The notes below the pieces were generated by a model, which was not told the origin of the DNA, did not search any database, and saw only the letters and a program-made list of their open reading frames with translations. A stretch of 44,339 bases of DNA, taken from the NCBI GenBank assembly GCA_028282925.1, contig JANQGV010000231.1, forward strand, positions 1 to 44,339, written 5' to 3'. Within the stretch, counting starts at the first letter, position 1. Every line of letters begins with the position of its first letter. The DNA is from Thermodesulfobacteriota bacterium (lineage in GTDB: Bacteria > Desulfobacterota > WTBG01 > CAIYCZ01 > CAIRTM01). The translations under genes were made by a program, and so were the position numbers. This document shows, in pieces, positions 2,748 to 44,205 of this stretch.

Positions 2748-3569
2748 ATGGGTGCTAAAAAGGTAAAAGCCCTTGTTATAACCGGCAACGGAACAAACTG
2801 TGAAATGGAAACGGCCCAGGCCTGTAAGCTGGCCGGGGCGGATGTGGTTGATATAGTGCACATCTATAAATTGCTCAGCGGCGAGAAGCGACTCAGTGAC
2901 TACCAGTTTCTCAACCTGCCCGGAGGATTCCTGGACGGAGACGACCTGGGTTCGGCCAAAGCCAACGCCACCCGGCTCAGGTATGCACGGACACCCCAGG
3001 GTGAAAGCCTGTTCAACCAGCTCTGCCGCTTCGTGCGGGACGGAAACCTGATTATGGGCATATGCAACGGGTTTCAGTTGCTGGTAAAACTGGGGCTTAT
3101 ACCGGCCTGCGACGGTGCAGTGGTGCAGGAATTGACACTCACATTTAACGATTCCGGAACATTTGAAGACCGGTGGGTTTACCTGAAAGTAAATGAGGAT
3201 TCGCCCTGTGTATTTACGAAGGGGTTAAAAAATCTGTATCTTCCTGTCCGGCATGGTGAGGGTAAGTTCATCCCCAATAATTCAGGAATTTTAAAGCAAT
3301 TGGAGGATAAGGGCCTGATTGCCGTGCAGTACAGCAATGCCGAGTGCATCAGCCCGGTTATGGAATATCCGTTGAATCCCAATGGTTCGGTTGAGGCGAT
3401 TGCCGGTATCTGTGATGTCACCGGACGGGTGTTCGGCATGATGCCCCACGCCGAAGCATACCTGCACTATACCAACCATCCCCGCTGGACCCGGGAAGAA
3501 TTGCCCGAAGAAGGGCAGGGGCTGGCGTTGTTTAGAAACGCGGTCGAGTATATCCGGAATAACTTGTAG
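2748..3569 (+). CDS. purQ: Phosphoribosylformylglycinamidine synthase, glutaminase subunit (PurQ)
   Basis: This 273-residue class I glutamine amidotransferase releases ammonia from glutamine and passes it to PurL. The nucleophile is Cys106 in GICNGFQLL, and the His-Glu pair is H234 and E236 in MPHAEAYLHYTNHP. It is somewhat longer than the roughly 225-residue PurQ of the three-subunit systems and resembles the amidotransferase part of the large single-chain enzyme, including an insertion around residues 130-150. ATG start with a GAGGAG-like ribosome site about 7 nt upstream (gtgaggagaat). It follows purL on the same strand and is probably in the same transcript. Its TAG stop overlaps the first base of a palindromic repeat copy. 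Confidence 0.94.
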   Translation: MGAKKVKALVITGNGTNCEMETAQACKLAGADVVDIVHIYKLLSGEKRLSDYQFLNLPGGFLDGDDLGSAKANATRLRYARTPQGESLFNQLCRFVRDGNLIMGICNGFQLLVKLGLIPACDGAVVQELTLTFNDSGTFEDRWVYLKVNEDSPCVFTKGLKNLYLPVRHGEGKFIPNNSGILKQLEDKGLIAVQYSNAECISPVMEYPLNPNGSVEAIAGICDVTGRVFGMMPHAEAYLHYTNHPRWTREELPEEGQGLALFRNAVEYIRNNL

Positions 3570-3592
3570 GAGACTGCCGGAGAATGTTCATC
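3569..3592. repeat. Partial copy of stop-codon-associated palindromic repeat (left end only)
   Basis: Starting at the G of the purQ TAG stop, about 24 nt (GGAGACTGCCGGAGAATG and onward) match the left end of the full palindromic element found after the RodZ-like gene, with roughly four mismatches. The matching right end is not seen nearby, so this looks like a truncated or degenerate copy. Confidence 0.55.
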
Positions 3593-3641
3593 CTCCTCGA
3601 TTTATCTGGATTGCGACCACCTATTGTCGCTGTAAAGCAAA

Positions 3642-3714
3642 GGCTATTAGTACGGTTCCTAAAACCATGGCTTCAGCCGTGCGACCCGAATAGCCTTTAG
3701 CGATTCGAAGAGAA
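3642..3714 (+). repeat. Solo copy of IS200-like left-end structured element
   Basis: This 73-nt stretch matches the sequence just upstream of the IS200-like transposase at the right edge of the window (44132-44205). Shared blocks are GGCTATTAGT, CTAAA, GCCGTGCGACCCGAA and TTTAGCGATTCG followed by GAGAA. It can fold with a central hairpin (ATGGCT/AGCCGT) and an outer pairing AAAGGCTATT (3639-3648) with AATAGCCTTT (3689-3698). No transposase ORF lies beside it, so it is a solo end, a REP-like element or a decayed insertion. Whether it is recognised as DNA or acts as RNA cannot be told from sequence alone. Confidence 0.7.
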
Positions 3715-7345: not shown

Positions 7346-7492
7346 AAACGTTACTAAATCCAGCAAAAAATATAGCAAATGCACATTTTTTTAGCAAGAT
7401 TTTTTATTTTTAGCTTGTTTATTCTATGAGTACATGATATCAATCAAATAAAAGAGTATAAAAGTGTGATATCTTTTATATGGTGCTGTTTT

Positions 7493-8326
7493 ATGGAAAC
7501 CGTAGGTTCTTTTTTAAAAACCGAACGGGAAAAACAACAGAAAAGCCTGAGCGAGGTTGCAAACGCTACGCGTATCGGTAAGTCGACCCTTGCGGCACTG
7601 GAAGACGGCAAGGGGGATTTCCTGCCGCCACAGTCATATGTACGCGGGTTTCTGAGGATTTACGCCAGTGAGCTTGGTCTCGATCCGGATGAAGTGATCC
7701 AGATGTATGATACCGAGTTGCTTGATTGCGGGAAATGGGAGCCACAAAAGGAGCTTAAGGGGCAGGCGCCGCCAGTGATAACCAGGAGTACGGTATTTGC
7801 AGGTCTGGCCCTTGTCTGCATAGCAGTGCTGCTGTATTGCGCGTATTACTTTAGCTCTATGGACACATCATCTCCAGACGCCGGGCCCGCAGTTGAGCCT
7901 GTTTCCGTCACCCAAAACGCTGAAGTCCCGCCGGAGCCGACTGCTGTTGAGCGGGCTGAAGTCCCGCCGCATAAAGGACAGCAGAGTGTGAGTACCCCGG
8001 CGCCGGTTGTTCAAGAGTCGGACACAGAGGTTAAGGCAACAGAAGAAAAAAAATTCATGGTCAAGTTTGTTGCCAGCGAGCTGACCTGGATCAGGATCGA
8101 GGTTAATGACTCAGAACCGTTTGAGATAATGTTACGTGAAGGCGAGTCGTACAGAAAGTCCGCCAGTGAATCGATGCGTGTTCGTATCGGGAACGCGGGC
8201 GGAATCAGGCTTTTCTATAATGATATCCCCATCGACATACCGGGCAACGAGGGCCAACCGGTAAACCTTACCTTTCCTGATGCTGCTAAAAACACAGACA
8301 GCAGCTTTGGCCTTCAGGATTTCTAG
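7493..8326 (+). CDS. RodZ-like membrane protein with N-terminal HTH and DUF4115 domain
   Basis: A 277-residue bitopic membrane protein. Residues 1-75 form an Xre-type helix-turn-helix domain (GSFLKTEREKQQKSLSEVA, then SYVRGFLRIYASEL). One membrane helix lies at about 101-121, followed by a Pro/Glu-rich periplasmic linker and a C-terminal beta-rich DUF4115 domain (about 190-265, ELTWIRIEVNDSEPF). The layout matches RodZ, which links MreB to the cell wall machinery; many RodZ-like proteins in other phyla are of unknown role. An earlier in-frame start at 7466 would add nine residues with no homology value, so I prefer the ATG at 7493. Its TAG stop supplies the first base of the palindromic repeat that follows. 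Confidence 0.82.
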   Translation: METVGSFLKTEREKQQKSLSEVANATRIGKSTLAALEDGKGDFLPPQSYVRGFLRIYASELGLDPDEVIQMYDTELLDCGKWEPQKELKGQAPPVITRSTVFAGLALVCIAVLLYCAYYFSSMDTSSPDAGPAVEPVSVTQNAEVPPEPTAVERAEVPPHKGQQSVSTPAPVVQESDTEVKATEEKKFMVKFVASELTWIRIEVNDSEPFEIMLREGESYRKSASESMRVRIGNAGGIRLFYNDIPIDIPGNEGQPVNLTFPDAAKNTDSSFGLQDF

Positions 8327-8452
8327 GAGGCTGTCGGAGAACGTCCATCTACTGTGTTGCGCTCATCCTTCGTCACTGCGACGTACAGTCAAGTACGCCT
8401 CATTCCTCAAGATTTCGCGCGCCTTGTATCTGGGCCTTCTCCAACAGCCTCC
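8326..8452. repeat. Full copy of stop-codon-associated palindromic repeat (MITE/terminator-like)
   Basis: A 127-bp element bounded by 16-nt near-perfect inverted ends: GGAGGCTGTCGGAGAA (8326-8341) against TTCTCCAACAGCCTCC (8437-8452), with one G/T pair. Inside lies a further inverted pair, GCGACGTAC and GTACGC around AGTCAA (about 8379-8398). Five T follow the right end (8456-8460), so the whole could act as a strong terminator between the converging RodZ-like and fcl genes. Partial relatives follow purQ and the UDG gene. Confidence 0.75.
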
Positions 8453-8480
8453 CCGTTTTTAAAGGTGTTCCGACAAGCGT

Positions 8481-9503
8481 CTAGCACCCGCTCTCTTTTT
8501 TATACCATTCGTAATATTTGAGCAGGCCGGTTCTCAGGTCGGTTTTGGGCTGCCAGCCAAGGGATGTGATTTTGCCGATATCAAGAAGCTTGCGAGGCGT
8601 GCCGTCGGGTTTACCGGCGTCCCAGTGTATTGCCGCTTCTGCCCCGACGGTTTCTTTAACCAGTTCGGCCAACTCTTTTATTGTTGTATCCATGCCGGTG
8701 CCGATATTAATGAACTCGCCGATATCCTGTGCCGAATGGTTTTGCATCAGAAAAAGACAGGCATCGGCCAGGTCGTCATTATACAAAAACTCGCGGTAAG
8801 GAGCCCCTGTTCCCCAAAGAATCACCTCCTGCTTTTCTTTCAGATGCTGCAAAAACTCCGGATCAACCGGGCCGAATCTGCGTATGTCCTTTTCAAGCTG
8901 TTCAGTGTTGCCGTCCTGGACCAGTTTGCTCATGTGGAATTTTCTGAGCAGTGCCGGAAGGACATGTGACGTTTCAAGATCGAAATTGTCATTGGGTCCG
9001 TACAGGTTGGTCGGCATGCCCGATATGAAATTGCAGCCATACTGCTCGTTATAGTATCTGCACAGTTTGATGGCTGCAATTTTTGCCACGGCATAGGGCT
9101 CGTTTGTCGGCTCAAGGGAATCGGTTAAAAGGCAGTCTTCTTTAATCGGCTGTGATGCAAGCCGCGGGTAAATGCATGAGGACCCCAGGTTGAGCAGTTT
9201 TTTTGTGCCGTGTGTATGGGCGGAATGAATAACATTGCAGGCGATGGCCAGATTCTCATAAATAAATTGCGCCTTATACGTGTTGTTGGCCACGATGCCG
9301 CCTACTTTTGCTGCCGCCAGAAAGACGTATTCAGGCCGGTACTCTTTGAAAAAAAGGTCGGTTGCGGCCTGGCAGGTCAGGTCCAGCTCGGTGTGGGTCC
9401 GGGTGATAAGGTTTCTGAAGCCCTGTTCTTCAAGCTTGCGCACAATGCTGCTGCCCACAAGGCCGCGGTGCCCGGCAACATATATGAAAGAGTCCCTGTT
9501 CAT
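8481..9503 (-). CDS. fcl: GDP-L-fucose synthase
   Basis: A 340-residue short-chain dehydrogenase/reductase that epimerises and reduces GDP-4-keto-6-deoxy-mannose to GDP-L-fucose with NADPH. The nucleotide-binding GHRGLVG is at residues 11-17, the catalytic Ser region GSSC at 107-110 and Y137-K141 (YAVAK) follow. Family blocks such as AAAKVGGI and IYP(R)LASQPIKE are intact. Its ATG overlaps the TGA of gmd (ATGA), so the two enzymes of GDP-fucose synthesis are translated together. The product would feed the polysaccharide locus further right or another glycan; no fucosyltransferase can be named in the window. Confidence 0.95.
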
Positions 9504-16453: not shown

Positions 16454-17149
16454 ATGAGTACACCTGTACAAAAGCACAACGAATTGAACTCCCTGGCGGA
16501 AAGCCTGAAAGTCCACTGCCGGGTGCAAAATCTTTCAGGCCGCACCTGTTTCTTTCGAAATACGAATCAGGATGGAGCGCCTGCAACGGAGCCGACTGAC
16601 AAAGCAGCCCTGCTCGAAGACCTTCGAACAGAGCTGGGTGAATGCACACGGTGCGGCCTTTCGGCCGGCAGAAAATCGATCGTTTTCGGCGAAGGGAACC
16701 CCTATGCCCGCCTGGTTTTTGTAGGTGAGGCTCCCGGGGCGGATGAGGATGTGCAGGGCAGGCCTTTTGTGGGGAAGGCGGGGCAATTGCTGACCCGGAT
16801 TATCGAGGCAATCAAGATGGGCCGGTCTGAAGTGTATATTGCCAATGTGATTAAATGCCGTCCGCCCTCTAACCGGGACCCGGCTGAAGATGAAATTGCA
16901 ACCTGCATTCCTTTTTTGCACAGGCAGTTGGAAATTATTCAGCCGCAGATAATATGTACCCTCGGAAGAATCGCCGCCCAGGCCCTGCTGCAAACAGATG
17001 CCGGTATCACAAAACTGCGGGGGCGGTTTCACCGTTTCGGCTCCATACCGGTTATGCCCACCTACCACCCCTCGTATCTTCTGCGTACCCCGGCACGTAA
17101 AAAGGAGACATGGATAGATGTGCAGATGATACAGGAAGCTCTCCGGTAG
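16454..17149 (+). CDS. Family 4 uracil-DNA glycosylase
   Basis: A 231-residue iron-sulfur uracil-DNA glycosylase that removes uracil produced by cytosine deamination. Family 4 features are complete: cluster ligands C64, C67, C135 and C151, active-site GEAPGADED at 91-99 with GRPFVGKAG just after, and a C-terminal HPSYLLR near 210. The first 50 residues are a poorly conserved extension. It follows coaBC by 22 nt with a GGAGA-containing leader and probably shares the transcript. Its TAG stop is the first part of another palindromic repeat copy. Confidence 0.93.
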   Translation: MSTPVQKHNELNSLAESLKVHCRVQNLSGRTCFFRNTNQDGAPATEPTDKAALLEDLRTELGECTRCGLSAGRKSIVFGEGNPYARLVFVGEAPGADEDVQGRPFVGKAGQLLTRIIEAIKMGRSEVYIANVIKCRPPSNRDPAEDEIATCIPFLHRQLEIIQPQIICTLGRIAAQALLQTDAGITKLRGRFHRFGSIPVMPTYHPSYLLRTPARKKETWIDVQMIQEALR

Positions 17150-17187
17150 GCGGCAGGAAAACGCTCATCTACCGCGTTGCGCTCACT
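17149..17187. repeat. Partial copy of stop-codon-associated palindromic repeat
   Basis: Starting at the G of the UDG stop TAG, about 38 nt match the left half of the full element at 8326, with clear blocks CATCTAC and GTTGCGCTCA and a 2-nt gap. The right-end inverted partner is not found before the next gene. A 69-codon ORF running through this region is not convincing as a gene. Confidence 0.6.
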
Positions 17188-17331
17188 GCTTTGGGACTAA
17201 TCTGTTTGATGATACAAAGGGTATCAGGTTATGTGGATCGGGAAGGGAGTAACATCACGGGTTGGATGGTGCTTGGTTGTTTGATGGTACATGCAGCACA
17301 TCGGCACTATGCAGAATAAGGCCCACTCTTT

Positions 17332-44131: not shown

Positions 44132-44205
44132 GGCTATTAGTTTATTTTCTAAACCCACGGCCTCTGGCCGTGCGACCCGAAAAGCTTTTAGCGATTCGGG
44201 GAGAA
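44132..44205 (+). repeat. Structured left-end element of the IS200-like insertion
   Basis: A 74-nt block with a strong hairpin CACGGCC/GGCCGTG around TCT (44156-44172) and a wider pairing CCCGAA/TTCGGG (44176-44181 with 44195-44200). IS200/IS605 elements carry such imperfect subterminal hairpins, which TnpA recognises as single-stranded DNA. The same block, with variations, occurs alone at 3642-3714. Confidence 0.6.

Follow-up and report, generated by a model that had tools for sequence, protein, structure and literature searches.

Palindromic repeats at stop codons in a Thermodesulfobacteriota bacterium: a probable family of IS5-type MITEs

Introduction

Why should one repeat begin exactly at the stop codons of three unrelated genes? 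The question is raised by a contig of a Thermodesulfobacteriota bacterium (JANQGV010000231.1, assembly GCA_028282925.1), of which positions 1 to 44,339 of the forward strand were analysed; this whole stretch of 44,339 nt is called the window here. A first-pass annotation had pointed to three palindromic copies (3569, 8326 and 17149), each opening with the G of the TAG that closes the gene before it (purQ, a rodZ-like gene and the uracil-DNA glycosylase gene, UDG), and had proposed either insertion at a preferred site that makes a new stop and shortens the protein, or selection for terminators directly abutting genes.

Results

Three related copies in the window

The three copies are indeed related, a single nhmmer profile matching all of them with E<1e-3 (25, 169 and 24 bits, respectively), and each of them starts at the TAG that terminates the gene upstream. 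The features of the window are the following:

2748..3569, plus strand: purQ-type glutamine amidotransferase gene, full length (domains, orthologue C-termini)
3567..3639, plus strand: truncated copy, left part only, from the purQ TAG stop at 3567-3569 (profile match 3565-3639)
7466..8326, plus strand: rodZ-like gene (HTH_25, RodZ_C domains), stop abutting the complete element on the left
8323..8326, no strand: left CTAG, read from the sequence as YTAR target duplication
8327..8480, plus strand: complete element, short class, 154 nt (sequence, profile match 8321-8484, 85 aligned full copies)
8481..8484, no strand: right CTAG, likewise read as YTAR target duplication
8481..9503, minus strand: GDP-L-fucose synthase gene (domains), convergent, stop abutting the complete element on the right
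16454..17149, plus strand: UDG gene (domains, orthologue C-termini)
17147..17200, plus strand: degenerate copy from the UDG TAG stop at 17147-17149 (profile match 17145-17186)

The middle copy alone is complete, as first described, but its end had been set too early, at 8452: the left arm (GAGGCTGTCGGAGAACG) opens an imperfect palindrome that runs up to 8452 and is followed by a second right arm up to 8480, the whole lying between the two CTAG sequences. This copy has a stop codon at both ends: the TAG of the rodZ-like gene (8324-8326) is at distance 0 from the left edge, and positions 8481-8483, read on the minus strand, are the TAG of the GDP-L-fucose synthase gene, also at distance 0. The C-terminus of this synthase is complete when compared with a solved homologue. 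The degenerate copy next to the UDG gene ends in TTTGGGACTAA (17190-17200), a segment found in the 185-nt class of apex inserts (class B consensus), and given this segment from a longer class it is probably a deletion derivative.

Left ends gather at stop codons

The left-end 18-mer, with at most 3 mismatches, matches 262 sites across the draft genome of 5.62 Mb; a reversed control pattern matches 13. A profile built from 30 genome copies and run with nhmmer on 1.75 Mb of this genome gave 210 hits, or 176 elements once split hits were joined, ranging in size from 154 to 345 nt and without a long ORF inside. Left ends were scored against our own gene calls (1394 genes, with 640 TAA, 378 TGA and 376 TAG stops). 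Among the 158 left ends that could be placed, 34 (21.5%) fall exactly on a sense stop (26 TAG, 6 TAA and 2 TGA) and 79 (50%, 54 of them at TAG) lie within -3 to +12 nt of one, a criterion that a random intergenic position satisfies in 2.5% of cases; 13 only lie 13-60 nt past a stop. For left ends edged by TAG, this triplet is the gene stop in 42 of 71, as compared with 6% of TAG triplets in intergenic DNA or stops. The stop excess is thus about 20-fold for left ends and 10-fold for TAG-edged ends, counted over copies that are not independent of each other. Stop-codon adjacency is therefore real and general: neither a lack of stop bias across the genome nor unrelated copies, either of which would have spoken against the earlier observation, was found.

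The adjacency is also asymmetric. Left ends are commoner than right ends at stops, a right-end stop in exact register, at one position, being seen in 5 copies, and the elements are oriented in the sense of the gene in 117 cases versus 39. Six genes read into an element (-15 to -8), and old, divergent copies are still found at stops. We considered target-primed (retro-type) insertion with truncation of one end, and rejected it: copies kept only as a left or only as a right end are balanced in number away from stops (17 versus 13), and long flanking duplications are absent.

A search with the core pattern matched at least 118 stretches from other organisms, most in Desulfobacterota and Nitrospirota, among which left ends again peak at stops (18 at -1 and 10 at 0) and right ends show a single-position stop peak of 7. 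The type of stop tracks the subfamily, YTAG|CAGG edges going with TAG or TAA and TGA|YGG edges with TGA. In a TGAYGG sister subfamily (L061-L178), which has the ends TGAYGGCTTCGTAAAAAG/CCATCA and 4-5 bp duplications and abuts TGA stops, the stop seems to be supplied by the element itself. A TGA-type element start (ttgacggcttcgtaaaaa) also lies one base after the TGA stop of the UDG orthologue of a distant relative (G033, L307), apparently an independent insertion at the same gene end.

Target site and a related insertion sequence

In copies from relatives, matching 4-mers stand at both ends as direct repeats: TTAG, CTAG, CTAA and TTAA, that is, YTAR. Flanks of the CTAA/CTAA and TTAA/TTAA kind cannot be an inverted repeat and are therefore target duplications. 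The duplication is thus found in relatives and in the complete window copy (CTAG/CTAG); across the copies of the genome itself, identical 4-bp flanks occur in 1 of 28, which is not significant, the right ends being perhaps eroded. Among own copies, only about 60% have C or T in front of TAG/TAA; in young ones the edge is mostly C/TTAG. IS5-group elements duplicate YTAR. An IS5-family transposase (NF033581, 263 bits) is encoded at G000:C197 within a 1342-bp element that has CTAG|CAGGCTGTTGAAAAA at both ends; the right end of this insertion sequence matches the MITE consensus of the relatives at 21 of 22 positions, own copies matching at 16 of 22. A related insertion sequence in another genome ends in TTAG|CAGGCTGCTGAAAAA, and related transposases in two other genomes have the same kind of end on at least one side. 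A close IS5 transposase is absent from three element-rich relatives (G006, G008 and G010), and its presence does not track element number.

How far can such a target explain the stop bias? CTAG is scarce, and 47 of its 219 occurrences in non-coding DNA overlap in register with a stop codon; for YTAR sites, the share is 9%. Target choice together with loss of coding insertions would bring up to about 11% of left ends onto stops, with equal orientations; the observed 21.5% exact and 50% near exceed that, so the target accounts for part of the bias.

Empty sites sought within the genome gave tandem self-matches only. Two candidate pairs of empty and filled sites from other organisms were set aside: in L089/L140, L140 retains part of the right arm behind the same UvrB-like stop and is a deletion derivative, and L115/L165 is not clean either. 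An element stands at the same UvrB-like stop in two species (L089 6640-6790 and L140 5740-5780), in one of them reduced to the right arm; the two share this copy at 84% DNA identity.

Protein C-termini are mostly unchanged

If insertion made new stops, abutted genes should end early. We took 20 own genes that an element abuts and compared them with their best matches in two genomes of the same family, some of which pairs may be paralogues: the C-termini differ in length by 0 residues in 11 of the 20, with a median of 0, and the difference is 0 in 25 of 51 control genes. In 3 of the 20, orthologues are longer, by 5, 15 and 22 residues. PurQ has exactly the C-terminus of its closest orthologues, and UDG is the shortest in an alignment of 30 proteins, its 29 orthologues extending 1-13 residues further at the C-terminus. 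Among the orthologue stops listed for the 20-gene comparison, none is directly followed by an element start. The stop positions are thus mostly native, and the elements arrived later. The proposed shortening of proteins is thereby refuted as a general rule, which is not to say that single genes may not have been affected.

Base pairing is preserved on the antisense strand

In all 85 full short copies, folding is stronger for the strand antisense to the gene than for the sense strand (mean -65.2 versus -48.5 kcal/mol), as it also is in 32 of 32 long copies and in 108 of 114 foreign copies; this lean amounts to 16 kcal, as against 6 kcal in shuffled sequences. Read on the antisense strand, 93.1% of the alignment cells are standard pairs and 275 are double changes, compared with 86.4% (maximum 87.0%) and 72 (maximum 100) in shuffles that ignore the relatedness of copies; the same pairs read on the sense strand are standard in 82.6%. 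G-U combinations outnumber A-C combinations in paired positions (481 versus 95). Pairing is kept on the antisense strand, which is not expected of a passive MITE. Some copies carry in addition a structured insert at the apex, about 115 nt long in 17 copies and about 185 nt in 15. In examples of these long classes (L251 5032-5273, on C107, and L249 15389-15732, on C214), the inserts are conserved and highly structured. Rfam gave no gathering-level match in the window and no credible match for long-class copies.

The T-run noted earlier exists in some copies but is a minority trait, following the hairpin on the transcribed strand in 12 of 85, and we rejected an intrinsic terminator as the nature of the element. 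Selection for terminators abutting genes, the other account offered at the outset, is not supported, on the same count and given the poorer folding of the sense strand in 85 of 85 copies.

Discussion

We think it probable, at roughly two chances in three, that the repeat is a non-autonomous IS5-type MITE whose YTAR target contains the stop, which insertion duplicates. The ancestral ends of the repeat, CAGGCTGTTGAAAAACG, match those of an IS5-family insertion sequence, and the repeat would insert at the 4-bp target YTAR, mostly CTAG, and duplicate it. Since TAR stands for TAA or TAG, and non-coding DNA has few CTAG sites elsewhere, a stop codon would often be hit; as the duplication would leave the gene with a whole stop, protein length would not change and the insertion would be tolerated; and since YTAR is self-complementary, either end could carry a stop. 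Shared terminal inverted repeats, a short size without a transposase gene and a high copy number are all as in IS5-type MITEs. We infer that the copies were moved by an IS5-type transposase and that tolerance is the main reason for their retention. The idea of a preferred insertion site has thus gained support, the site being apparently YTAR, which contains TAG/TAA.

The MITE reading leaves several observations unaccounted for: (i), the excess of left ends; (ii), the copies 1-12 nt past the stop; (iii), the antisense pairing; and (iv), the apex inserts. An element that targets gene ends and acts or moves through folding of its antisense strand (as RNA or as single-stranded DNA) would take in the pairing, the exchanged apex modules and the left ends at or just past stops beyond what the target gives, and we regard it as doubtful. 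Could the copies instead be placed or kept as 3'-end elements (a terminator, an mRNA stabiliser or a ribosome-release signal), through selection for those abutting stops? The drop from 79 of 158 left ends at -3 to +12 to 13 at 13-60 is sharper than tolerance alone predicts, and the old copies still at stops, the favoured sense orientation and the UvrB copy common to two species point in the same direction; such a role is nevertheless unlikely, given the rarity of the T-run and a transcribed strand that folds worse and keeps fewer standard pairs than its complement.

Movement as a folded single strand antisense to the gene, HUH/Y1- or attC-like and actively directed to stop-codon motifs, would agree with the antisense folding and compensatory pairs, with the fit between the edge motif of a subfamily (YTAG or TGA) and the stop used, and with the Y1 transposases of the genome; we find it quite improbable, however, as 4-5 bp target duplications are typical of DDE transposases and not of Y1 enzymes, the true RAYT of the genome has GTAG repeats of its own, and no element lies within 1.5 kb of six longer Y1 genes, the sole nearby copy adjoining an IS200-like fragment. 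Least credible of all is insertion inside coding 3' ends, with an earlier stop and a shorter protein as the result: the short UDG, the three genes with longer orthologues and the TGAYGG subfamily, whose stop seems part of the element, speak for it, but abutted genes resemble controls in their C-termini, PurQ is full length and few genes read into an element.

If the repeat is an IS5-type MITE, there is a simple reason for mobile repeats to gather exactly at gene ends: the transposase target would contain the stop and duplicate it, and the gene would pay nothing. A caution follows for annotation, namely that TAG stops can sit at the edges of mobile elements, and the strand-specific pairing and exchangeable apex modules are open to study in any element-rich Desulfobacterota isolate.

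Elements of this kind are already known. As in IS5-family MITEs, the terminal inverted repeats match an IS5-family insertion sequence in the same genome, duplications are YTAR, and the copies are short, non-coding and many; unlike these MITEs, the present element has a long internal imperfect palindrome, one-strand pairing, a second right arm and exchangeable structured apex inserts. YPAL elements are said, in the original report of 2006, to lie close downstream of stop codons. The YPAL/RU-2 elements of Yersinia, compared by description, resemble ours in being about 168 bp long, palindromic, intergenic and mobile with target duplications (PMC2229807, PMC2759123), but these duplications are 3-26 bp, versus 4 bp here, and the phylum is another (PMC2229807). 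Palindromic mini-elements of similar size are thus known in enterobacteria (PMC2229807, PMC2759123): ERIC/RU-1, again by description, is an imperfect palindrome of about 127 bp, intergenic and near gene ends like the present element, and differs in its TA duplication (PMC2229807). Within the same broad bacterial group, Geobacter metallireducens has palindrome-containing intergenic multicopy families, compared here by description; one is said to be similar to sequences in many genomes (PMC2700814).

A precedent for termini that supply TAG stops is given by the GTAG-REPs: flanking ORFs often take their TAG stop from the end of such a repeat, and the repeats lie <20 bp from 3' ends (Di Nocera and colleagues, PMC3733652). 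Like them, the present element is palindromic, mostly intergenic and near 3' ends, with termini that supply a TAG stop (PMC3733652); GTAG-REPs, however, are 20-40 bp long, bear a GTAG or CGTC tag and have RAYT partners, whereas the present element has 154-345 nt and C/TTAG edges. Membership of the RAYT/REP group was accordingly rejected, the element being at least 154 nt and the RAYT at G000:C127 being flanked by GTAGGGTGGG repeats without an element copy. In a limited literature search, we did not find the present family, its YTAR logic or its antisense pairing.

Two further repeats were seen along the way. The RAYT just mentioned is a bona fide one (NF047646; L295 1422-2060) in a Desulfobacterota genome, and the GTAGGGTGGG repeats on its flanks are REP hairpins. 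A repeated GCCGTGCGACCCGAAnAGCnTTTAGCGATTCG, which resembles the left end of an IS200-like element, occurs in the window at 3676-3714 and 44167-44205 and also at L288 1370-1490; in L288 it lies upstream of a Y1 transposase fragment, and in the window one piece stands just behind the truncated copy 3567-3639.
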